Shown here piece by piece: positions 3,514 to 16,213 of a stretch of DNA of 47,202 bases. Below the pieces are notes generated by a model. The model worked only from the letters and a program-made list of their open reading frames with translations, was not told the origin of the DNA and ran no database searches. Positions within the stretch are counted from its first letter, which is position 1. The number at the start of each line of letters is the position of its first letter. Position numbers and translations under genes: made by a program. This DNA is from Gammaproteobacteria bacterium (lineage in GTDB: Bacteria; Pseudomonadota; Gammaproteobacteria; SZUA-229), in assembly GCA_026195895.1 (NCBI GenBank), contig JAPHRO010000001.1, positions 1 through 47,202 on the forward strand, written 5' to 3'.

Positions 3514-4770
3514 TTAAACTTCGAACTTGTCGAGTTTCTTAGCTACTGATTGTAACTTCAGTGTTACATAGTCAGGTAAGCCGTTACTCTTATAAGGAGG
3601 GTAGGCCTCACCCTGAATCAGTGGGTAAAGATAATCTTTACAGGCCTGGGTAATACCAAAACCGTCGTCGGTAATGTATTCCATTGGCATCATTTTCTCT
3701 ACATTAGCCACTTCAGACAGGGGAGCCTGACCGATTTCCCATTTATATGGGTTGTTTGAAATACGATCAACAGTTGGCATGATTGAGTTATGGCCTTCCA
3801 GTGCAAACTCAACCGCTTTCTCACCTAATGCGTATGCTTGCGCAACGTCAGACTCAGAAGCCAGGTGACGTGCCGCGCGTTGCAGGTAATCCGCAACTGC
3901 CCAGTGGAATTTATGCCCCAGCTCTTCTTTGATCATGTTAGCAACAACGGGGGCAGCGCCACCTAATTGCGCGTGACCGAAGGAATCGCGAGTACCCTGT
4001 TCCGCCAGGAACTTGCCATCAGGCCAGTGCGTACCTTCAGAAACAACGATAGTGCAGTAACCGTATTCTTTAACTTTAGCGTCAACCTGAGCCATGAATT
4101 TGGCTTTATCAAATTCAACTTCAGGGAACAGGATAACCACTGGAATACCTTCGTCTTCAATCAGGCCACCCGCTGCTGCGATCCAGCCCGCGTGACGACC
4201 CATAACTTCCAGTACGAAAATCTTGGTCGACGTTTTCGCCATAGAGCGCACATCGAAAGATGCTTCTAATGCAGAAACTGCAATGTATTTAGCCACTGAA
4301 CCGAAACCTGGGCAGTTGTCAGTGATCGGCAGATCGTTGTCTACAGTTTTTGGAACGTGAATTGCCTGCACCGGGAAACCCATTTTTTCAGACAACTGAG
4401 AAACCTTGTAACAGGTGTCTGCAGAGTCACCGCCGCCATTGTAGAAGAAGTAACCAATGTCGTGGGCTTTGAATACTTCGATCAGACGTTCGTATTCTAC
4501 TTTGTTGTCTTCCAGGCTTTTCAGTTTGAAGCGGCAGGAACCAAAACCACCAGAAGGGGTGTGTTTCAGGGCAGCGATATCTTCAGCAGATTCCAGACTG
4601 GTGTCGATCAGGTCTTCTTCCAGCGCTCCGATGATGCCGTTGCGACCTGCGTAGACAGTACCGATTTTGTCAGAATGCTTGCGTGCAGTTTCGATAACAC
4701 CGCAGGCTGAAGCATTGATCACGGCAGTTACACCGCCAGATTGTGCATAAAAAGCGTTTTTCTTGCTCAT
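3514..4770 (-). CDS. pfp: Pyrophosphate-dependent 6-phosphofructokinase
   Basis: This enzyme reversibly phosphorylates fructose 6-phosphate with PPi. Residues 112-116 read GGGDS, with Asp where ATP enzymes have Gly, and residues 140-146 read PKTVDND, with Lys where ATP enzymes have Gly; both are hallmarks of PPi use. MGRHAGWIAA and FGSVAKY are further family motifs. I chose the ATG at 4768-4770 (418 residues) because GAGGAG sits 6 bases upstream; an earlier in-frame start would add seven residues. In autotrophic gammaproteobacteria such enzymes have been proposed to act also on sedoheptulose bisphosphate in a PPi-conserving Calvin cycle, and they often sit near hppA, as here. Confidence 0.93.
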   Translation of the reverse strand: MSKKNAFYAQSGGVTAVINASACGVIETARKHSDKIGTVYAGRNGIIGALEEDLIDTSLESAEDIAALKHTPSGGFGSCRFKLKSLEDNKVEYERLIEVFKAHDIGYFFYNGGGDSADTCYKVSQLSEKMGFPVQAIHVPKTVDNDLPITDNCPGFGSVAKYIAVSALEASFDVRSMAKTSTKIFVLEVMGRHAGWIAAAGGLIEDEGIPVVILFPEVEFDKAKFMAQVDAKVKEYGYCTIVVSEGTHWPDGKFLAEQGTRDSFGHAQLGGAAPVVANMIKEELGHKFHWAVADYLQRAARHLASESDVAQAYALGEKAVEFALEGHNSIMPTVDRISNNPYKWEIGQAPLSEVANVEKMMPMEYITDDGFGITQACKDYLYPLIQGEAYPPYKSNGLPDYVTLKLQSVAKKLDKFEV

Positions 4771-5036
4771 GTGTACTCCTCGTGTCCACAATGATTTAAT
4801 GAATTCTTGGTATCTATCAGATGGGAGTGTCTGATCTTCGTGTTCCAGAGCATGTCTGAAACACGGTATTTACATAAAACAGCGCAAGATAATGCGCCAT
4901 TCGGGCCCAAGGAACAAATCAAGCTTATTTATGGGGCCCCTAATCCGTACTTATTGCATAACTATTCAGCTTATCCCTGTCCTGAAGCCGCACAGGAAAA
5001 ACCTGAACAGCTATGATTTTTAAAATGTTGAAAGGG

Positions 5037-5426
5037 CTATTTCTTCTCTACACCGCGGGCATGGGCCTCCGGTGGTGCTTCTTTTTCCATTTCCTGCTCA
5101 CGGGCATGGTCGGCCTGCACCTGCAATAAAGAGATGATGCAGTCTCCCAGATCGTCATATTCGAACACGCCGGTGCCGTATTGCTGATAACCACGATAGA
5201 AAAACTGGCAACGATATTTCTGCAAACCGGTTTTGAACACCGCGAAATTACAGCCTTCATGGTTCCAGACCACCATCGGACAGTCGGTGGCTTCTTTGTC
5301 GCTGGGGCTCAGACGTATTTCAGCATCCGCCAGTTGCAGCTGGAATTCATCTTCGTTCCAGCGTTCCTTCAGGGTGGTCTGAAGAGTCCAGAGTTCGGTT
5401 TCGGTAAAATCTGCTATGCCGGCCAT
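5037..5426 (-). CDS. Hypothetical cytoplasmic protein
   Basis: I do not recognise this 129-residue protein. It has no signal peptide or membrane helix. The N-terminus (MAGIADFTETELWTL) is probably helical, the centre is rich in aromatic residues (KYRCQFFYRGYQQYGTG), and the tail is charged (EMEKEAPPEAHA). I start at the ATG at 5424-5426. The frame extends upstream only through a TTG at 5471, and the extra residues are unconvincing. No strong ribosome site is visible. It lies between pfp and the FecR gene with gaps on both sides, so it is probably monocistronic. Confidence 0.6.
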   Translation of the reverse strand: MAGIADFTETELWTLQTTLKERWNEDEFQLQLADAEIRLSPSDKEATDCPMVVWNHEGCNFAVFKTGLQKYRCQFFYRGYQQYGTGVFEYDDLGDCIISLLQVQADHAREQEMEKEAPPEAHARGVEKK

Positions 5427-5530
5427 GGTGTTACTCAGGTATATTTCTATGGGGTGGGGAGGATACCGCAAAAATCAAATTATTTCACTTTTGAGCGAGC
5501 AGAGCTTTAGGGGAGTATGGCAGGAAGGAT

Positions 5531-5568: not shown

Positions 5569-8334
5569 TTAACCGCCATTTAACAATACGGCTGTTCCAT
5601 TTGCGGTATTGGGGATATTGTCTCGAATTGAAAAGCTGGTGATGGCGCCTTCAGCATTGGGCCCTACAAACTGAACACTGGCTGTTCCCTGACAGTTCAG
5701 GCAGGTACAGGTCGGTATACAGCTATTACCGGAAATGGCGAATCCAGTATTCAACGAGGTAAATGGGATGTTTCTAGCCTGGCCGTCAAGTACGGTAACG
5801 CTTTCATTGGCGCTGGCCGTATAGCTTGTGACAAGATTGGTAGTGAAGTTTACATCCATGGACACGCTGCCGCCCATAGCGGTAGTGCCGTTTACATATC
5901 CATTAAATACTGTGTCAGTAAAAGTCGCTGAACCAGATAGTCCGGCAAGCTGCGCTGGTGTGGATATGTTATTGCTTTGAATGAAAAGCGCGTCGTTAAC
6001 AGCAGTAACCTGATTATCTTTAATGACTGTTGCCATATCCCATCGGCCCCATGAAATTGTGGTGCCGGGTATAGAGCTGGCATCACTACCGGTATCGAAC
6101 AGCGTGGCTTGTGACGGGTTTATAGTCAGGTTGTGATATCGATTGTCCCCCGTATTATCGGTAAAACGATCATTAGCGATGACAGGATTGCCGGCTGATA
6201 AATAAATATTATCAACACTGCTGCTGTTGGTCAGTACTGGGAAGCTGACGTCACCGGGGGCTGCGTTAAATGCAAATAGGGCGGCAAAATTGTTCGGGGT
6301 TGTCGTGAGGGTGAGTGGAGTCAGCAATGCGCTACCACTCATGCCACCTCCCAAAGGATCTGTCAGTGAATAGGATGTCATTGCTCCGCCTGCTGCATTA
6401 CCTACAAGCAGAAAGCTTGCTTCGCCGTCGCAGGTTGTATTGTGGCAAGCACCAGATATATTGAAAGAGCTGTTTAGATTGGTGAAATTTACCCGATTCG
6501 TCAAGCTGCCAAACCAGTTGATTCCAGCTATATCTGCGCTGACCGAGTAACTCAATAGCTGGTGATTCACAAAATCTATATCCGCAGAAATTGCTGGATT
6601 CACCGCAGCTACATTCCCCAGATGGTTGGTGGGAAGCGTGCCGCCGGCAAATTGGTAGACTTCAATTCGGCTTCTTAGTCCGCCCAGGTTGGCCAGTTCG
6701 GTTGGTGTTGTCAGATTAGGACTGTAGATATAATGTAAGTTCTGGTCGTGAATCAGCGGCGCGTCATTTTCCCGAACGAAATAATTGCCATTCCAGCGTC
6801 CCCAGTTGACGCCACCAAAATTAGCTGTGCCGCCCATGCTGCTCAATACATAAGTCGCACCCGTACCATCAGGTCGTAGTCGAGCGCCTTCATGTCGCTG
6901 GAAGTTTCCATCCGGATCAAAAGACTGCTCGTAAATGGCAAAAGGTAAATTGGCAATGACCTGTCCACCGGGGGTAGTGAAGTTTTCCAGGAAAATGTTA
7001 TTGCCATTATTCGGTGTAATGATGATGGGTGCGCCGACGCCATTTCGGCCCGTGCCATCTAAATGGGTAAAAGCGAGCGCCATACCGGAACCAACCGGTG
7101 CTTTCGGCGGCAATGGTTGCTCAAAGGTGTTGACGTTCTGATCGGGCAAGAAGGGCAACGGACGATCAGGTTGGTGTTCTGGATTGTTTGCAAGCATGGT
7201 CATTGGATTATGCAGTCGATTAAAGCGGCCAGGACGTCTGCTGTCACCCTGCTGGCGGTTGTCGCCTGATTCTCCCTGTGGATCTCCATTGCCGGGTTCA
7301 TGTCCAGGACCCTGTGCCATATCTGCTTGGCCGTCTTGATCTCTTCTATCAGACAACGGAGCATCGTGAAATACTGGCGGGGGTACCAGGATTTCCACCG
7401 GTGGAGTTTGTGCTGTTTCGATATGGAAATATTGATCGTTATTAAAAGAGAAAATACCGGCTGTGTTTTCTGCAATGACGCTGCCGTCAACAACGCCACC
7501 ATACAGCCCGTCCTGCAAATTATCGGCTTGTGGATTGTTCTGGCAGCTACCTGAGTTGCATAGCATCAATCCATAATGTGTACCACGAATACCAATGGTC
7601 GCGACAGTTGTTCTAACCTGATAATTTTTTTTGTTTCTATGTCCAATGGCACCGGTAATGGTTCTAAAGCCGCCGCGGATCAATTCAATAATGCTGCGTT
7701 CTGTGCCATCTTGTTGGCCATTGTAATCATATTGGGCCAATAGTATTTCTGTGTTAGGTCTTAATGAAAGCAGTGCGCCATCTTTCATACGTAGCTGAGT
7801 GTGAGCGCGTTGAGCAGTGCGAATGGTGTCGCCTTTTAAAATATTAGAATTACGTTTTAGTTTTCGAGTGCCGCCGCGATTACTGGCTTCCAGCTTGCCA
7901 ATATTAATGACTACTCGACCAATGACATCTTCTGGATCAGGCATAGCTGTCTGTACGGATTTAACCGGTATAGTTTTTGGGGTGGTGGGTTCGGATAAGG
8001 ACGTGCTTTTAGTAATGACGACAGGGGAAGGAACTTTTTTTACTAAGGGTTTTTTTATTGAAAATTCAGGTAATCTGAGTTTACTGCCAACACTCATGAG
8101 ATTGGGGTTGCCTTTAAAAACGTCAGGATTGTTTTGGACTACTTCGCGACGTAATCGTATTTGTTTGTCTTTATCATTGGGAAAAACTTTGCGGGCGATG
8201 GAATAAACGGAGTCGCCGGGTTTTACCAGCCAGTGTGAATTATTAATGATTTCTGCGTTAGCTGGTTGAGTCGTGATACCTGAAAAAAGGATCATTGCAA
8301 AAGTCAGTGTTGGATAAAAATAATTCCTGCTCAT
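5569..8334 (-). CDS. Exported LysM/FecR-domain protein with two TbpB-like C-terminal repeats
   Basis: This predicted exported protein of 921 residues is of unknown function. I start at the ATG at 8332-8334 because GAGGT lies 7 bases upstream and a clean signal peptide follows (hydrophobic core, cleavage near PANA-E). Domains in order: a LysM-like segment (WLVKPGDSVYSIARKVFP, about 35-90); a FecR domain (about 140-270, with GDTIRTAQRAHTQLRMKDG and TTVATIGIRGTHYG); a Gly/Gln/Asp-rich linker (about 330-390); then two related repeats, each with WGRW and a closing segment resembling the TbpB barrel signature F-GPNAEE-GG-F (LLVGNAAGGAMTSYS; FVGPNAEGAITSFS). Cysteine pairs sit in each repeat. The partner gene 28 bp upstream encodes a Slam-like outer-membrane protein, so this may be its secreted or surface substrate. 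FecR here is probably not a sigma-factor regulator, since no sigma factor gene is near. Confidence 0.8.
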   Translation of the reverse strand: MSRNYFYPTLTFAMILFSGITTQPANAEIINNSHWLVKPGDSVYSIARKVFPNDKDKQIRLRREVVQNNPDVFKGNPNLMSVGSKLRLPEFSIKKPLVKKVPSPVVITKSTSLSEPTTPKTIPVKSVQTAMPDPEDVIGRVVINIGKLEASNRGGTRKLKRNSNILKGDTIRTAQRAHTQLRMKDGALLSLRPNTEILLAQYDYNGQQDGTERSIIELIRGGFRTITGAIGHRNKKNYQVRTTVATIGIRGTHYGLMLCNSGSCQNNPQADNLQDGLYGGVVDGSVIAENTAGIFSFNNDQYFHIETAQTPPVEILVPPPVFHDAPLSDRRDQDGQADMAQGPGHEPGNGDPQGESGDNRQQGDSRRPGRFNRLHNPMTMLANNPEHQPDRPLPFLPDQNVNTFEQPLPPKAPVGSGMALAFTHLDGTGRNGVGAPIIITPNNGNNIFLENFTTPGGQVIANLPFAIYEQSFDPDGNFQRHEGARLRPDGTGATYVLSSMGGTANFGGVNWGRWNGNYFVRENDAPLIHDQNLHYIYSPNLTTPTELANLGGLRSRIEVYQFAGGTLPTNHLGNVAAVNPAISADIDFVNHQLLSYSVSADIAGINWFGSLTNRVNFTNLNSSFNISGACHNTTCDGEASFLLVGNAAGGAMTSYSLTDPLGGGMSGSALLTPLTLTTTPNNFAALFAFNAAPGDVSFPVLTNSSSVDNIYLSAGNPVIANDRFTDNTGDNRYHNLTINPSQATLFDTGSDASSIPGTTISWGRWDMATVIKDNQVTAVNDALFIQSNNISTPAQLAGLSGSATFTDTVFNGYVNGTTAMGGSVSMDVNFTTNLVTSYTASANESVTVLDGQARNIPFTSLNTGFAISGNSCIPTCTCLNCQGTASVQFVGPNAEGAITSFSIRDNIPNTANGTAVLLNGG

Positions 8335-8362
8335 AGCGCACCTCGTATTCATCATTCCCTGT

Positions 8363-9685
8363 TTAGAATGCATAATTCAAATTCAGGCTAAAGACCGTAC
8401 GATCATAGTTATACAGCTCGATATTTGAGCTGTTCTCTGTGTAACTGATTTTAGTGTCCAGTCGCCAGTCTTTATGAAAAAGCCACAATAAGTTTATATC
8501 AGCCGATGTGAAATCATCTTCGCGAACGATGCCGGCAAATAACGGGAAGGTTTGTTCACCTGCGTATTCACTACTTTGATAGCCTGCTGAAATTTGTAAC
8601 GCCAGTTTAGGAGACAAACCTAAAATACTACCAACACGGATACCTGTGATGTCACGTTCGGTGTCCGACAGAGCATTTGCATTGCTATCATCTTCCGCTA
8701 TTTCGGCACCCAGGTTGAGAGTGGCAAAAAATGTTGGATTTAACAGTATGGCAAATGAGTGGGTATAGGTTAATGACAGGGTTGCAAGATCTGAATTTCG
8801 TGATTCTGTTTCTGGGTATTCCAAGTTCACGTATTGCAGTGTTGAACTTAGTCTGGATTTCTGCGTTAAGGAATAATGCCATTCCAGATTCATACCTGCA
8901 AGGTCACGATAATCATCGCCATCAAGTTGGTAAGTCTGGTAAAGCAATTCAGCTTTGTAGCGACTTTCTTTATACAGGCGTGAAACTCCAAACTGCAGCG
9001 TAGCGGTATTAGTGTCAAATTCATCATGGTCCTGATTGATACGAAACGCACCGGTAATATTGCCGCTCATCATCCAGCCGGGTGCAAAAGGGTGACCAAT
9101 CTGCCAGGCGGCAACCAGTTCGCTAAAAGTGTCATCCTGACCGAGGCTTTGTTCATCTAGATCAATTATTGTCACGCCATCATCGGCACCACTGTTAACA
9201 TTGCTGTCGCTTCCTATAGCCAATGAAACGAAACCGCTGGACGTTGTGCGGTAGCGGGCTTCTTTTAGTCGTATCTGATCGAGGAATTGCTGAGTTGTTT
9301 CCTGGACTTCTCTGGGCGGGTTATAGGCAAGTACTTTTTCAAATTCCAGGCGAGCACGTGAATATTCTTCCAGAATAAAATAACCCCGTGCCAGTTCCAG
9401 TCGAGCAACATGATCTTCGGGAAATGTTAATAATACGCGTTCCAGGGCAAACACGCCCTGACTGGCATGACCGGTATCTATAGCAGCAACGCCGTATAAG
9501 TAATCGAAATAGGGATCACCTTCCTGTTGGTCAACATACTGTCTCGCATAGTCATAGGCTTTTTGGCGTTTATAGGTATTAAACAACTGCTGAAGTGTTT
9601 GCAGATTAAAGGCTTCGGCGGCAGAGGTGATAACGGGAAACAGGAATAATCCAGATAGAATTAAAAACAGGCCTTTTTTTAACAT
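8363..9685 (-). CDS. TPR plus outer-membrane beta-barrel protein, Slam/DUF560-like
   Basis: The 440-residue protein has a signal peptide (about 1-22), TPR-like helices (about 27-140, including AIDTGHASQGVFALERVL and ARLELARGYFILEEYSRARLEFEKVL), and then about 290 residues of alternating amphipathic strands ending in a C-terminal Phe (LNLNYAF), the usual Bam signal. TPR followed by a roughly 14-strand barrel is the layout of Slam proteins, the outer-membrane channels of type XI secretion. An AAGGA site precedes the ATG. The downstream gene begins 28 bp later and encodes a protein with TbpB-like repeats, matching the known pairing of channel and substrate. An alternative is a porin or adhesin-export protein outside the Slam clade. 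Confidence 0.75.
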   Translation of the reverse strand: MLKKGLFLILSGLFLFPVITSAAEAFNLQTLQQLFNTYKRQKAYDYARQYVDQQEGDPYFDYLYGVAAIDTGHASQGVFALERVLLTFPEDHVARLELARGYFILEEYSRARLEFEKVLAYNPPREVQETTQQFLDQIRLKEARYRTTSSGFVSLAIGSDSNVNSGADDGVTIIDLDEQSLGQDDTFSELVAAWQIGHPFAPGWMMSGNITGAFRINQDHDEFDTNTATLQFGVSRLYKESRYKAELLYQTYQLDGDDYRDLAGMNLEWHYSLTQKSRLSSTLQYVNLEYPETESRNSDLATLSLTYTHSFAILLNPTFFATLNLGAEIAEDDSNANALSDTERDITGIRVGSILGLSPKLALQISAGYQSSEYAGEQTFPLFAGIVREDDFTSADINLLWLFHKDWRLDTKISYTENSSNIELYNYDRTVFSLNLNYAF

Positions 9686-9763: not shown

Positions 9764-9789
9764 AAAAAGGGCGATGATTCGCCCTTTTT
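9764..9789 (-). terminator. Intrinsic terminator after the CBS gene
   Basis: AAAAAGGGCGA at 9764-9774 pairs with TCGCCCTTTTT at 9779-9789 around a 4-base loop, with a T run on the minus strand. It separates the CBS gene from the TPR/barrel gene, whose promoter should lie at about 9686-9760. Confidence 0.8.
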
Positions 9790-10676: not shown

Positions 10677-11330
10677 ATGGGTGATTCCACCTCGGAATTG
10701 AGTGTACAGAATATTGCCTGTACGCGCGGTTACCGCGAGTTATTTACAGAGTTGAATTTTGTTCTTGGCGCGGGGCAGATACTGCGCGTGGAAGGCAAAA
10801 ACGGCAGTGGAAAAACCAGTTTGTTGCGCATCCTGGCCGGTCTGGCCGAGCCGGCAGATGGCAAAGTTCTGTGGCAGGGTAAAGGCATTCGGCACCCGGA
10901 GAACAATTATTTCCAGAGCATGCTTTATCTGGGGCATAAGCCGGGTATTAAGTTTGAGTTGTCGCCGCTGGAAAATCTGTGCATGGCCAAAGCACTACAC
11001 GGCAGTAAAAACGAAAACGGTATCGAAGAAGCGCTATATCAGCTAGGGCTGTATGGTTTTGAGGAAATCACCAGCGGCAATTTGTCGGCGGGACAGAAAC
11101 GCCGGGTGGCGTTAGCTGAGCTGTTGCTGACCAACGCCAGAATCTGGATTCTGGACGAACCCTATACCTCGCTGGACGTAGTGGCGATTGCATTCCTGGA
11201 AAAGCTGTTCCAGCAGCACGTACAGGCGGGTGGCATGCTGGTGATTACCTCGCATCAGCCGGTAACGCTTGACGGTTGCGATCATCAACGTATTGTATTG
11301 CCAGCAACCGAGCTGGAGCGGGTGGCTTAG
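10677..11330 (+). CDS. ccmA: Heme exporter ATP-binding subunit CcmA
   Basis: This is the ATPase of the CcmABCD complex, which releases holo-CcmE during cytochrome c maturation. The 217 residues carry Walker A (GKNGSGKTSLL, about 40-50), the ABC signature LSAGQKRRVALAELL, Walker B (IWILDEPYTSLD) and the switch His (ITSHQP). It is the first gene of a full ccmABCDEFGHI operon. The stop codon TAG shares its G with the GTG start of ccmB, indicating translational coupling. Confidence 0.95.
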   Translation: MGDSTSELSVQNIACTRGYRELFTELNFVLGAGQILRVEGKNGSGKTSLLRILAGLAEPADGKVLWQGKGIRHPENNYFQSMLYLGHKPGIKFELSPLENLCMAKALHGSKNENGIEEALYQLGLYGFEEITSGNLSAGQKRRVALAELLLTNARIWILDEPYTSLDVVAIAFLEKLFQQHVQAGGMLVITSHQPVTLDGCDHQRIVLPATELERVA

Positions 11331-12010
11331 TGGACGCTAAATTATCAACGGCTTTCTGGGCGCTACTAAAACGTGATTTGCGCCTGGCCTACCGGCATCG
11401 CAATGAATTACTTAATCCGCTGTTTTTCTTTGTGCTGGTGGTGATGTTGTTCCCGCTCGGCACCAGTCCGGAAAAAGAACTGTTGATGACCATGGCGCCT
11501 GGTGTCATCTGGGTAGCAGCTTTACTGGCATCCATGTTATCTCTCGATACCCTGTTTCGCGCAGATTTTGAAGATGGCACACTGGAACAGATCACCTTAA
11601 GTCCGCATCCCCTGTCGGTACTGGTGCTGGCAAAAATTATTGCTCACTGGCTGGTTACGGGGTTTCCGATGATTTTACTGGCACCGCTGCTGGCGGTGTT
11701 CATGTACCTGCCTGACGAGGGCATAGGGGTGCTGATGTTGACACTGGCCATCGGCACGCCAATCCTGAGTCTGATCGGTGCCATCGGCATGGGGCTAACC
11801 GTTGGTTTGCGTCGTGGCGGCATGCTGTTATCCCTGATAGTGCTTCCTTTATATATACCAGTTCTGATATTCTCGGCCAACGCTGTAAATACCTACCTGG
11901 CAGATCTGGCAATCAGGGGGCAGATATACTTTTTAATGGCTGTTCTGGTGCTGGCGATCACGCTGGCGCCTATCGCAACGGCTGCTGCGCTCCGGATAAG
12001 TCTGGAATGA
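11330..12010 (+). CDS. ccmB: Heme exporter membrane subunit CcmB
   Basis: This is the membrane permease partner of CcmA, 226 residues, with about six transmembrane helices and the typical N-terminus (FWALLKRDLRLAYRHRNELL). I chose the GTG at 11330-11332, which overlaps the ccmA stop and follows GGAGCGGG; upstream frame is antisense-like to the end of ccmA and has no site of its own. The length fits the family (about 220). A 172-bp gap with two small hairpins separates it from ccmC. Confidence 0.93.
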   Translation: MDAKLSTAFWALLKRDLRLAYRHRNELLNPLFFFVLVVMLFPLGTSPEKELLMTMAPGVIWVAALLASMLSLDTLFRADFEDGTLEQITLSPHPLSVLVLAKIIAHWLVTGFPMILLAPLLAVFMYLPDEGIGVLMLTLAIGTPILSLIGAIGMGLTVGLRRGGMLLSLIVLPLYIPVLIFSANAVNTYLADLAIRGQIYFLMAVLVLAITLAPIATAAALRISLE

Positions 12011-12030
12011 ATGGTCGGGAATGATTCATA

Positions 12031-12133
12031 CCAAAGGCGTTTATTGCCTTTGGCCCGAAGGGGGGCTTGCGGGTGAAGATGACACGCTATGTATGACGCC
12101 ACAGGCACGACCTACACCCTCTCACTATGAGAG
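12031..12133 (+). other. Two small hairpins in the ccmB-ccmC gap
   Basis: CCAAAGGC (12031-12038) pairs with GCCTTTGG (12046-12053), and CTCTCA (12119-12124) pairs with TGAGAG (12128-12133). Neither is followed by a good T run, so they look more like RNA-processing or pausing structures than terminators. They may tune ccmAB against ccmCDEFGHI. Confidence 0.35.
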
Positions 12134-12182
12134 ATTTTATGATTGAAATAAGACATTATTGAGTTTAGATATTGATATAAGC

Positions 12183-12929
12183 ATGAAATTACCCGCAATA
12201 GTCCATAAATTTTCATCACCACGTAATTTTTACGTGATGTCCGGCAAGTTGATTCCCTGGTTTGCCTGGCCCTGTTTGATCCTGCTGGTAGCAGGTTTGT
12301 ATTACGGGCTAATAGAAGCCCCGGCTGATTATCAGCAGGGTGAGTCATATCGCATCATATTCATCCATGTGCCCAGTGCCTGGATGTCCATGATGATTTA
12401 TATGGTGATGGCCATTGCGGGCGCGATTGGCCTGATCTGGCGTATTAAAATGGCCGATATTGTGGCATCGGCCTCTGCGCCCATTGGTGCCGCGTTTACT
12501 TTTCTGGCTCTGGTAACGGGGTCGCTCTGGGGTAAACCTATGTGGGGCGCCTGGTGGGTCTGGGATGCACGTCTTACATCTGAGTTGATTTTGCTGTTTT
12601 TATATCTCGGCTTTATTGCCTTGCAGGCGTCTATTGAAGACCCCCGTAATGCGGCCAGAGCCGGGGCTGTGCTGGCGCTAGTGGGAGTGGTCAACATTCC
12701 CATTATTCATTATTCGGTTGAGTGGTGGAGTACCCTGCATCAGGGGGCAACGATTACCAAGCTGGATAAGCCCTCCATTCATATCAGTATGTTGATACCC
12801 TTATTACTCATGGCCGTGGCGTTCAAGTTATACTATGCCGCCTCGGTGCTGATGCGGGCACGGAGTGAGTTATTGAAGCGTGAACAGAATGCGCGCTGGG
12901 TTAGAGAGATCGTGGCAAATGAGTCATAA
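12183..12929 (+). CDS. ccmC: Heme-handling membrane protein CcmC
   Basis: CcmC attaches heme to CcmE in the periplasmic face of the membrane. The 248 residues hold six transmembrane helices, the tryptophan-rich WWD motif (WGAWWVWDARLTSELIL, about 127-143) and flanking conserved histidines (FIHVPSAW; PIIHYSVEWW). The ATG at 12183 gives the family's usual start (LPAIVHKFSSPRNFYVMSGKLIPW). A TTG at 12159 would add eight residues. No strong ribosome site is visible. Confidence 0.94.
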   Translation: MKLPAIVHKFSSPRNFYVMSGKLIPWFAWPCLILLVAGLYYGLIEAPADYQQGESYRIIFIHVPSAWMSMMIYMVMAIAGAIGLIWRIKMADIVASASAPIGAAFTFLALVTGSLWGKPMWGAWWVWDARLTSELILLFLYLGFIALQASIEDPRNAARAGAVLALVGVVNIPIIHYSVEWWSTLHQGATITKLDKPSIHISMLIPLLLMAVAFKLYYAASVLMRARSELLKREQNARWVREIVANES

Positions 12930-12932
12930 ACA

Positions 12933-13127
12933 ATGAGCATAAGTGAATTTTTTCATATGGGCGGCTATGCCGTGTACGTCTGGTCGTCCTATGGGCTGGC
13001 ATTTGTGGTAATGCTGGCGATTTTCATCAAGCCCGTGTTGACGCGCAAACAGATCATCAGGGAGTTGCGCATGAAGTACCGTCAACAGGAGCGGCAGCAG
13101 CAGGATAATGCGCAGGCCGAAAATTGA
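12933..13127 (+). CDS. ccmD: CcmD, small membrane subunit
   Basis: The 64 residues have one transmembrane helix (YAVYVWSSYGLAFVVMLAIF) and a basic, Gln-rich cytoplasmic tail, as in CcmD, which is needed to release holo-CcmE from CcmABC. It starts three bases after the ccmC stop and lies in the normal ccmCDE order. Confidence 0.9.
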   Translation: MSISEFFHMGGYAVYVWSSYGLAFVVMLAIFIKPVLTRKQIIRELRMKYRQQERQQQDNAQAEN

Positions 13128-13263
13128 TAAAGAACAAAGCTGAAATAAGTTGAATGTGAGTAAACTTTTACTTACTTAGGTAATCAGATCATATTGTCGG
13201 TTGAGTTATAGAATTCAATCCTTGTTTAATCAGATACGGGTTAAAGACCCAGAGAGTAGTTTA

Positions 13264-13710
13264 ATGACCCCCCGCCAGAAACGAATGACCATGGTAGCTG
13301 TATTAATCGCCGGTGTTGGCGTGTTTATCACCCTGCTATTAATGGCACTGAACGAAAACATTAATCACTTCTATGGACCCAAGCAGGTACTTGCCGGTGA
13401 GGCACCACAGGATCATAGCTTTAGGCTGGGTGGCCTGGTGGTCGCTGGTACAGTTGAGCGTGACCCGAATAGTCTCAAAATTACTTTTGATCTCACCGAT
13501 ACCGCAGAATCGGTGAAGGTTCAGTATGAAGGCATACTGCCGGATCTGTTCCGTGAAGGTCAGGGTATCGTTGCTACCGGCAAAATGCAGGGTAAGATCT
13601 TTCTCGCCGACGAAGTGCTGGCCAAACATGACGAAAACTATATGCCCCCTGAAGTCGCGGATACCCTGAAAGAAGCCGGTATGACCGAACACCAGGGGAA
13701 AAAACTATGA
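13264..13710 (+). CDS. ccmE: Heme chaperone CcmE
   Basis: This periplasmic heme chaperone is anchored by one N-terminal helix (about 8-30) and followed by an OB-fold domain (about 35-130). The covalent heme histidine lies in VLAKHDENYMPPEV near the C-terminus, matching His130 of E. coli. I chose the ATG at 13264, in front of PRQKRM, with a GAGAG site upstream; a TTG at 13201 would add 21 residues. Length is 148. The stop overlaps ccmF by ATGA. Confidence 0.95.
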   Translation: MTPRQKRMTMVAVLIAGVGVFITLLLMALNENINHFYGPKQVLAGEAPQDHSFRLGGLVVAGTVERDPNSLKITFDLTDTAESVKVQYEGILPDLFREGQGIVATGKMQGKIFLADEVLAKHDENYMPPEVADTLKEAGMTEHQGKKL

Positions 13711-15683
13711 TCCCTGAAATCGGGCATTTTGCCCTTATCCTGGCGCTGAGTCTGGCGATTATTCTTGGTATTGTTCCTTTAGTTGGTAGTTTTAAGCGTC
13801 AGGCCGCCTGGATCTCTGTGGCACAACCGGCGGCCTATGGGCAGGCGCTGTTTATTACCATCAGTTTTATCTGTCTGACCTGGGCATTTATCCAGAATGA
13901 TTTTTCAGTGGTTTATGCAGTCAAACAATCCAATACAGAATTGCCCCTGATTTACCGAATCTCAGCGGTATGGGGTGGTCACGAAGGTTCCTTGCTGCTG
14001 TGGGCCTGGTTCCTGTCATTATGGACCGCAGCCGTTGCGCTGTTCAGTCGGGAAATGCCGCAGGTGATGCGGGCCAGGGTGCTGGCAATCATGGGACTGG
14101 TCAGTATCGGTTTTCTGTTGTTCGCGTTGATAACCTCCAACCCTTTTGAACGCGTTTTCCCGGCACCGCTGGAAGGCCGTAGTTTGAATCCTCTGTTGCA
14201 GGATCCAGGATTAATCATTCACCCGCCCTTGCTATACATGGGTTATGTCGGTTTCTCGGTGGCCTTCGCATTTGCGATTGCCGCTATGTTAGGCGGTCGT
14301 CTGGATAGTGCCTGGGCCAAATGGTCGCGTCCCTGGACCAATATCGCCTGGATGTTTCTGACCATCGGTATCGCACTGGGTAGCTGGTGGGCTTATTACG
14401 AGCTTGGCTGGGGCGGCTGGTGGTTCTGGGATCCGGTAGAAAACGCCTCTTTCATGCCCTGGCTGGTGGGTACCGCCCTGGTACATTCACTGGCAGCGAC
14501 CGAAAAGCGTGGTGTATTTAAAGCCTGGACCGTGCTACTGGCAGTATTTGCTTTTTCACTGAGCTTGTTAGGCACCTTCCTGGTGCGTTCCGGCGTGTTA
14601 ACCTCGGTGCATGCCTTTGCCACCGATCCGGATCGTGGCGTATTTATTCTGGCCTTCCTGGGTGTGGTGGTCGGTGCTTCGCTGTTTTTATATTCCTGGC
14701 GCGCGCCGGATATCAAAAGTGCAACCCGGGTGGAAGTGGTGTCACGTGAATTCGCGCTATTAATCAATAATGTATTGTTAGTCATCACGACATTCTTCGT
14801 GCTATTAGGTACTTTATACCCGCTGGCGCTGGATGCTCTGGGGCTGGGTAAAATTTCCGTTGGCCCGCCGTATTTTGATCTGGTGTTTGTTATTCTGACT
14901 ATTCCGATTGCCATCATGCTCGGTTTTGCAGTGAGCGCACGCTGGAAAAAGGATAGTGCTGCCAGACTGTTGAACAATGTAAAACTGGCGGCGGTTATCA
15001 GTATTGTGCTGGGTGTTGGGGCGGCATTTTTAGTGGCGGATACGTTCAATTTCAGTGCCGCGCTGGGTATCACCCTGGGTATCTGGATCACCTATACCAG
15101 TTTGCAGAATCTGTATGACCGCGTATCGGCGAAACAAAATAAAATGGCTGCGCTGATGCAGTTGCCGCGATCCATTGTCGGTATGACGCTGGCGCATATC
15201 GGGGTGGCATTTTTTGTTGTCGGGATCACGCTGACGTCTCAATTTAGTATTGAAAAAGATGTGCGACTGGAAGCCGGCAAGAGTTTTGATATTGGCGGCT
15301 ATGAGTTTATGTTCAACAGTGTTGTGGAAAAAGAAGGGCCTAATTACCGTGCTACGGAAGGTTCATTTACGGTGAGCCAAAATGGTAAAAAAGTTGCCGA
15401 GTTGTATTCGCAAAAACGTCTATATAATGCCGGCGGTATGCCAATGACAGAAGCCGGTATTGATCCCGGATTTTTCCGTGATCTGTATGTGTCTCTGGGC
15501 GAACCGCTGAATAATCAGGGAGCCTGGAGTGTCAGGCTTTACCATAAGCCGTTTATTCGCTGGATCTGGTTGGGCTGTATATTTATGTCTCTGGGTGGAT
15601 TGCTATCGATAACCGATCGTCGTTATCGGATGAAACTCAAGTCAGAAAGTTTGCAGAAAACCTCAGCGGCGGAGGCGGCCTAA
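13707..15683 (+). CDS. ccmF: Cytochrome c heme lyase CcmF
   Basis: This 658-residue inner-membrane protein joins heme to apocytochromes together with CcmH and CcmI. It has about 15 transmembrane helices and the WWD domain (WWAYYELGWGGWWFWDPVENASF, near 225-250, cited in part: GGWWFWDPVENASFMPW). Conserved histidines such as GGHEGSLLLW and IIHPPLLYMGY are present. ATGA overlap with ccmE and TAATG overlap with ccmG show tight coupling. Confidence 0.97.
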   Translation: MIPEIGHFALILALSLAIILGIVPLVGSFKRQAAWISVAQPAAYGQALFITISFICLTWAFIQNDFSVVYAVKQSNTELPLIYRISAVWGGHEGSLLLWAWFLSLWTAAVALFSREMPQVMRARVLAIMGLVSIGFLLFALITSNPFERVFPAPLEGRSLNPLLQDPGLIIHPPLLYMGYVGFSVAFAFAIAAMLGGRLDSAWAKWSRPWTNIAWMFLTIGIALGSWWAYYELGWGGWWFWDPVENASFMPWLVGTALVHSLAATEKRGVFKAWTVLLAVFAFSLSLLGTFLVRSGVLTSVHAFATDPDRGVFILAFLGVVVGASLFLYSWRAPDIKSATRVEVVSREFALLINNVLLVITTFFVLLGTLYPLALDALGLGKISVGPPYFDLVFVILTIPIAIMLGFAVSARWKKDSAARLLNNVKLAAVISIVLGVGAAFLVADTFNFSAALGITLGIWITYTSLQNLYDRVSAKQNKMAALMQLPRSIVGMTLAHIGVAFFVVGITLTSQFSIEKDVRLEAGKSFDIGGYEFMFNSVVEKEGPNYRATEGSFTVSQNGKKVAELYSQKRLYNAGGMPMTEAGIDPGFFRDLYVSLGEPLNNQGAWSVRLYHKPFIRWIWLGCIFMSLGGLLSITDRRYRMKLKSESLQKTSAAEAA

Positions 15684-16213
15684 TGTCGCGTTTTCTACTG
15701 CCGATTGGGTTTATTCTGCTGATTGTGCTGCTGTATGTGGGTTTAAGTTTAAATCCACGGGAAGTGCCATCGGTGTTTATTAATAAACCGGCACCGGATT
15801 TTTCCTTGCCTAAACTGGAGCAGCTGGATCAGCAGGTTTCCAATAAAGATATGCTGGGTAAAGTCTGGTTGTTTAATGTCTGGGCGACCTGGTGTGTCTC
15901 CTGTCGTTCCGAGCATCATACCCTGATGGCGCTGGCCAATACCGGTGAAGTACCCATCGTTGGCCTGAATTATAAAGATGAAAATGCGCCGGCCCAGACC
16001 TGGTTGAGCCAACTGGGTAATCCCTACATATTTAACGCGGTGGATGCCGAAGGTCGAACCGGTATTGATTACGGTGTCTATGGTACGCCGGAAACTTTTA
16101 TCATTGATAAAAAGGGTGTGATTCGTCATAAACATACCGGGCCGATTTATCCTCAGCAGCTGGAACAAAGTATCCTGCCTTTAGTAAGACAATTAAAGGC
16201 AGAGCAGGGATGA
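15683..16213 (+). CDS. ccmG: Thiol:disulfide interchange protein CcmG/DsbE
   Basis: This membrane-tethered periplasmic thioredoxin reduces the heme-site cysteines of apocytochromes or CcmH. The 176 residues have an N-terminal anchor (about 5-22), the active site WATWCVSCRSEH (about 70-81) and the cis-Pro loop GTPETFIID. The start overlaps the ccmF stop, and the end overlaps ccmH by ATGA. The CVSC dipeptide differs from the CPTC of E. coli. Confidence 0.93.
   Translation: MSRFLLPIGFILLIVLLYVGLSLNPREVPSVFINKPAPDFSLPKLEQLDQQVSNKDMLGKVWLFNVWATWCVSCRSEHHTLMALANTGEVPIVGLNYKDENAPAQTWLSQLGNPYIFNAVDAEGRTGIDYGVYGTPETFIIDKKGVIRHKHTGPIYPQQLEQSILPLVRQLKAEQG

Follow-up and report, generated by a model that had tools for sequence, protein, structure and literature searches.

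A SlipAM-family outer-membrane barrel paired with a FecR-bearing exported protein: a candidate type XI secretion-like unit in Gammaproteobacteria

The window analyzed here is a 47,202-nucleotide stretch of a Gammaproteobacteria bacterium genome (assembly GCA_026195895.1, contig JAPHRO010000001.1, positions 1–47,202), and its reverse strand carries a two-gene pair at 5569–9685. The upstream gene encodes a 440-residue TPR-barrel protein whose last residue is Phe. After a gap of 28 base pairs (bp) follows an exported protein of 921 residues, counted from an MSRN start with GAGG ahead of it; a longer in-frame open reading frame (ORF) opens at 8373 and specifies 934 residues. These coordinates agree with the layout given in a preliminary description of the locus, which proposed a Slam-like channel of the type XI secretion system (T11SS) and its cargo. 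The pair comprises the following features.

8363–9685, reverse strand: SlipAM-family (PF04575) TPR/14-strand outer-membrane barrel protein, putative T11SS-like translocon (Pfam, AlphaFold2 [AF2], hhalign)
9617–9685, reverse strand: signal peptide of the barrel protein, residues 1–23 (read off the sequence)
9260–9604, reverse strand: periplasmic TPR domain, residues 28–142 (AF2 helices and TPR matches)
8366–9244, reverse strand: 14-strand beta barrel, residues 148–440, ending in Phe (AF2 strands; VIA Z 22 to CymA/OmpG barrels)
5569–8334, reverse strand: exported protein with LysM, FecR and, at its C-terminus, two TbpB-like domains, putative cargo (ORF and Pfam)
8254–8334, reverse strand: type I signal peptide (MSRN...PANA), no lipobox (sequence)
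8062–8235, reverse strand: divergent LysM (FimV-like), residues 47–104 of the 934-residue ORF (below the cut-off here, above it in a homologue)
7369–7926, reverse strand: FecR module, residues 150–335, the constant part of the family (Pfam FecR 1.2e-11; alignment A1)
6292–7092, reverse strand: C-terminal repeat R1, residues 428–694 (orthologue of the relatives' single domain)
5572–6291, reverse strand: C-terminal repeat R2, residues 695–934, handle plus 8-strand TbpB/fHbp-like barrel with FVGPNAEGAITSF near its end (AF2, Foldseek, VIA)

The barrel protein scored 54 bits against PF04575 (SlipAM; Pfam cut-off 22), while PF24575 (TPR_Slam) stayed under its cut-off at 14 bits. A match to the plain porin family PF10082 (BBP2_2) also passed (27.7 bits, cut-off 23.7), but is not defining because the SlipAM score is twice as high. 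The AF2 model (pLDDT 95) has N-terminal TPR-type helices and 14 strands. Slams are themselves 14-strand barrels. Among 69 barrels partnered with FecR genes, SlipAM matched 49, BBP2_2 32 and TPR_Slam 23. Aligned with nine classical Slam-type proteins by hhalign, the FecR-linked barrels gave E 6e-38 across the full barrel. The Slam-like TPR-barrel identity first proposed is thus borne out, and by sequence the protein is a SlipAM relative and not a member of a plain porin clade.

The signal peptide of the exported protein ends in PANA and, judged by eye, is of the ordinary type I without a lipobox, as originally described. Pfam FecR matched residues 182–270 of the 934-residue ORF at 45 bits (cut-off 24), confirming that domain. 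LysM reached only 12.8 bits against a cut-off of 20.9; homologues sharing the same N-terminus reached 20.6 and 28.2 bits, so the window LysM is considered real but divergent.

Two WGRW repeats with a TbpB-like end had been noted in the C-terminal half. WGRW occurs at residues 524 and 775 and FVGPNAEG at 902, and local alignment of R1 with R2 scored 223, compared to 42 ± 7 (maximum 79) across 200 shuffles. Single-protein queries of the PDB returned nothing useful, so alignment profiles were needed. Searched against all PDB sequences (E up to 10), the profile of alignment A3, which gathers 95 of these domains from the window protein and its relatives, matched exactly six entries: TbpB (7.4e-9), TbpB (9.5e-6), hemophilin (0.01) and three NHBA entries. 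The AF2 model of R2, built with A3 (pLDDT 83.6, pTM 0.85), forms a handle plus 8-strand barrel, and its best PDB matches by Foldseek were the TbpB C-lobe (8e-7), hemophilin and fHbp. VIA-align gave Z 12.5 to the fHbp C-terminal barrel (115 residues, 2.4 Å), 12.2 to NHBA, 12.1 to TbpB (177 residues over 1–239) and 9.7 to HpuA. Pfam TbpB_B_D had no match in the window protein and matched 8 of the 95 A3 members at E up to 1, the best at 1.7e-6. Each repeat is, on the model, very likely a handle plus 8-strand TbpB/fHbp-type barrel, R1 being placed by its homology to R2 and its orthologues. The TbpB resemblance first seen by eye is therefore statistical, through the profile matches, the R2 fold and the hhalign comparison given below.

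Conservation of the pairing was surveyed in both directions. The forward survey searched genomes for nothing but two short FecR peptide motifs and retained 80 loci; a barrel gene lay directly upstream of the FecR gene in 72 of the 76 with enough upstream sequence (median gap 11 bp). The reverse survey scanned the class with a barrel profile, which returned a block of matches above ~250 bits. Among the 56 of these that were fetched, the FecR gene was the next gene in 52 and lay just upstream in 1, and 3 ended at a contig edge, giving adjacency in 53/53 assessable loci. Four weaker barrels (150–175 bits) had no adjoining FecR gene. Since the profile was built from FecR-linked barrels, this survey speaks for the clade and not for all TPR barrels. 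The outer neighbors of the pair change across families, many carriers are known only from metagenomes, and one further pair (locus L257) lies in a genome from another class of the phylum. Of the 27 PF04575-positive genomes of the class sample that could be assessed, 19 carry the FecR pair; the remaining 8 have either TbpB_B_D genes, which are not in every case adjacent, or a near-copy of a locus of this kind. FecR-linked barrels thus outnumber TbpB-linked ones about 2:1. Barrel distances correlated with FecR distances (r 0.69) and with terminal-domain distances (r 0.53; Mantel p < 0.001); after thinning the values were 0.57 and 0.32, a comparison to be read knowing that FecR is better conserved and hence less saturated than the terminal domain. 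In one locus (L174:3471-6308, genome G087) the FecR cargo appears to be spread over more than one frame while the adjoining barrel gene is intact, probably because the cargo gene is broken or the sequence contains an error.

The domain composition of the exported protein varies around the FecR module. LysM was found by pattern in 14 of 137 intact relatives. By profile, 105 of these relatives have one terminal domain, 9 have two or more and 23 have none, some of the last still ending in similar sequence. Relatives found within the window protein's own family have one terminal domain each, to which R1 is orthologous (48% identity with the nearest), R2 being a divergent extra copy. At several loci (L173/L176, L210–L212 and L223) the protein beside the barrel is a short FecR-only form ending after the module. 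LysM-FecR as a one-off build and two repeats as a family-defining trait were both rejected on these counts. The "unusual build" of the preliminary description is not unusual within its clade: FecR is the rule there, with LysM and the duplicated repeat added locally. Some relatives are giants of 1570 to over 2144 residues, in which a single FecR module is followed by as many as four terminal domains of the TbpB type (L122:5923-12354, L123:5848-10560, L148:1371-7094).

From the domain identities, predicted folds, conserved pairing and separate clade of the barrels (below) we infer the location, translocation and FecR and LysM roles that follow. The two genes probably form a T11SS-like unit in which the SlipAM barrel passes the FecR protein to the surface or medium. 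The TPR/14-strand barrel would sit in the outer membrane. Its cargo would be exported by Sec without lipidation, held in the periplasm, recognized by the TPR/barrel protein and passed through the barrel to the cell surface or medium, folding outside. Targeting and folding would probably fall to the C-terminal handle-plus-barrel, on the pattern of TbpB, fHbp and hemophilin, with the FecR module as passenger or docking part; the N-terminal LysM of the source-genome cargo may tie the protein to peptidoglycan. Because of the homology to Slam/T11SS, the pair most likely works in a Slam-like manner. Unfolded TbpB passes Slam1 in proteoliposomes, aided by Skp (PMC9090332), and T11SS also moves non-lipidated proteins, with cargo directed by a C-terminal barrel (PMC8406197, PMC12282271).

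Several results weigh against this export model. A maximum-likelihood tree gathered the FecR-linked barrels in one clade (support 100/100), with the classical Slams (99/77) and the other TPR barrels outside it, and an assignment of the window barrel to the classical Slam clade was dismissed. The FecR-linked barrels also aligned almost as well with another TPR-barrel group (four members), at E 2e-34; that group and the classical Slams aligned at 5e-13; sigma/anti-sigma-like genes adjoin three of its four members. Comparison of the repeat profile with an independent PF01298 (TbpB_B_D) domain set by hhalign favored the cargo assignment with E 4e-5, but at a modest probability of 69.5. Two loci with FecR and a terminal barrel domain (L141, L144) have no SlipAM-like channel gene within 6 kb; the channel was possibly lost or is located elsewhere. 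Finally, the FecR-only lineages, in at least six genomes, showed no terminal domain genome-wide at E 1e-3, so export of barrel domains cannot be the channel's only job. These results place the window barrel, by sequence, in the SlipAM family and outside the classical Slams, and indicate a remote homology of the repeats to TbpB_B_D. Of the channel–cargo pair first proposed, the adjacency stands, conserved over many genera; the classical Slam affiliation does not, and FecR is the constant partner.

The FecR-only lineages and the stronger barrel–FecR correlation mark FecR as that constant partner, shifting the emphasis from the terminal barrel, absent in some lineages, which had been stressed as the mark of a cargo. 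The FecR-only lineages argue for FecR helping recognition, or for FecR itself being what the channel serves. In an extended form, which we regard as unlikely, the FecR module and not the terminal barrel would be the channel's obligate partner for docking, gating or plugging. Where LysM is present, it would hold the N-terminus on peptidoglycan with the terminal barrels outside, so that the protein would span the outer membrane either within its own exporter or alongside it. Such wall-anchored, non-lipidated surface display would be a mode not described for T11SS.

A sensor pair draws on the same observations. Here the FecR protein would stay periplasmic as signaling or gating partner of the barrel, like a FecR regulator with the transporter FecA, and the terminal barrel would bind a ligand instead of serving as a secretion signal. 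The constancy of FecR, its closer covariation with the barrel in the thinned set and the retention of FecR-only partners in several lineages are as expected from this. The window protein shares the PF04773 domain with FecR regulators (FecI anti-sigma partners) and with FecR-domain surface proteins of Leptospira (Lsa33, a weak match, 1e-4). Unlike these, it has terminal TbpB-like barrels and a signal peptide in place of the inner-membrane anchor and topology of FecR, and no sigma factor (fecI-like or of the extracytoplasmic function [ECF] type) or fecA-like TonB receptor gene adjoins the pair. The only solved sequence relatives of the terminal domain are, moreover, surface or secreted proteins. 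On balance a sensor role seems doubtful.

Less probable still is a barrel that serves as a small-molecule or polysaccharide channel (EpsL-, BcsC-, PelB- or OmpG-like), the FecR protein being an accessory and no protein being moved. An NCBIfam EpsL match (1.5e-12, below the family's cut-off) and the BBP2_2 score just over its threshold point this way, as do the best matches of a fold search with the barrel model, namely porins (CymA/OmpG), FadL and the exporter BcsC. Against the PDB, a profile of the barrel protein gave only TPR repeats among the matches listed. Since no solved Slam structure was among the fold matches listed, these cannot place the barrel among Slams and are not decisive; SlipAM remains its best Pfam family, and no polysaccharide synthesis genes adjoin the pair. 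That the two are ordinary operon neighbors acting separately is highly unlikely: synteny by itself is no proof of interaction, but adjacency held at every assessable barrel-selected locus, across many families and changing outer neighbors.

Returning to the export model, the window barrel resembles the Slam/T11SS translocons (DUF560, PF04575: Slam1, NilB, HrpB) in its signal peptide, N-terminal TPR, C-terminal barrel, final Phe and adjoining cargo gene. It differs in its lower PF04575 score (55 bits versus about 73–360 for classical members in the same survey) and separate clade. Its partner has the C-terminal handle, 8-strand barrel and end motif F-x-G-x-x-A-E of the Slam/T11SS cargo TbpB, hemophilin, fHbp and HpuA (the barrel is also in NHBA), and duplicates the domain, recalling the two lobes of TbpB. 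Unlike these, its N-terminal half is FecR, sometimes with LysM, instead of a handle/lobe or ligand domain; it lacks a lipobox, and most FecR relatives have one terminal domain and some three or four. With the soluble TbpB_B_D cargo of TXISS-1B (hemophilin, HrpC) it shares a type I signal peptide and predicted solubility; however, it is much longer and FecR-bearing, and no TonB receptor or haem genes adjoin the pair.

These comparisons indicate that the pair is genuine and widespread, a FecR-linked version of the channel/cargo pairs of T11SS type, with secretion as its presumed function, and it looks like a large, undescribed branch of T11SS. In the open literature searched, no paper was found to join FecR with Slam, DUF560 or T11SS, or FecR, LysM, outer membrane and TbpB; the main text of two T11SS surveys mentions neither FecR nor LysM. 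According to a 2025 survey, no cargo is known or predicted for most T11SS outer-membrane proteins, and only seven are verified, all in one cluster (PMC12282271). FecR proteins would give a predicted cargo to the SlipAM-type channel that seems most frequent in the sampled class, and would extend T11SS-type logic from host-associated iron/haem uptake to free-living bacteria. Whether the terminal barrel or FecR is the recognized part becomes a testable question.

The pair is flanked by a small ORF and genes for phosphofructokinase (PFK), adk and a CBS-domain protein. Ahead of it lies one further feature; terminator-like hairpins across the window were in total not above shuffles.

9764–9789, reverse strand: terminator-like hairpin ahead of the pair (between the pair and the upstream CBS-domain gene)

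A small conserved protein (5037–5471) and the phosphofructokinase gene (3514–4791) come after the pair, in the same order as in L004, L006, L008 and L010. A cytochrome c maturation (ccm) cluster occupies 10677–16213 on the opposite strand. Three genomes of different families have a related TPR barrel next to genes resembling those for sigma and anti-sigma factors (L248:2707-5826 in the source genome, G000:C30:3000-9500; L246; L247). A second TPR barrel of the source genome (L239:3043-4296, G000:C30), like that in L244, lies close to a protein whose C-terminus is PEP-CTERM-like (VPLPA...RRRK).

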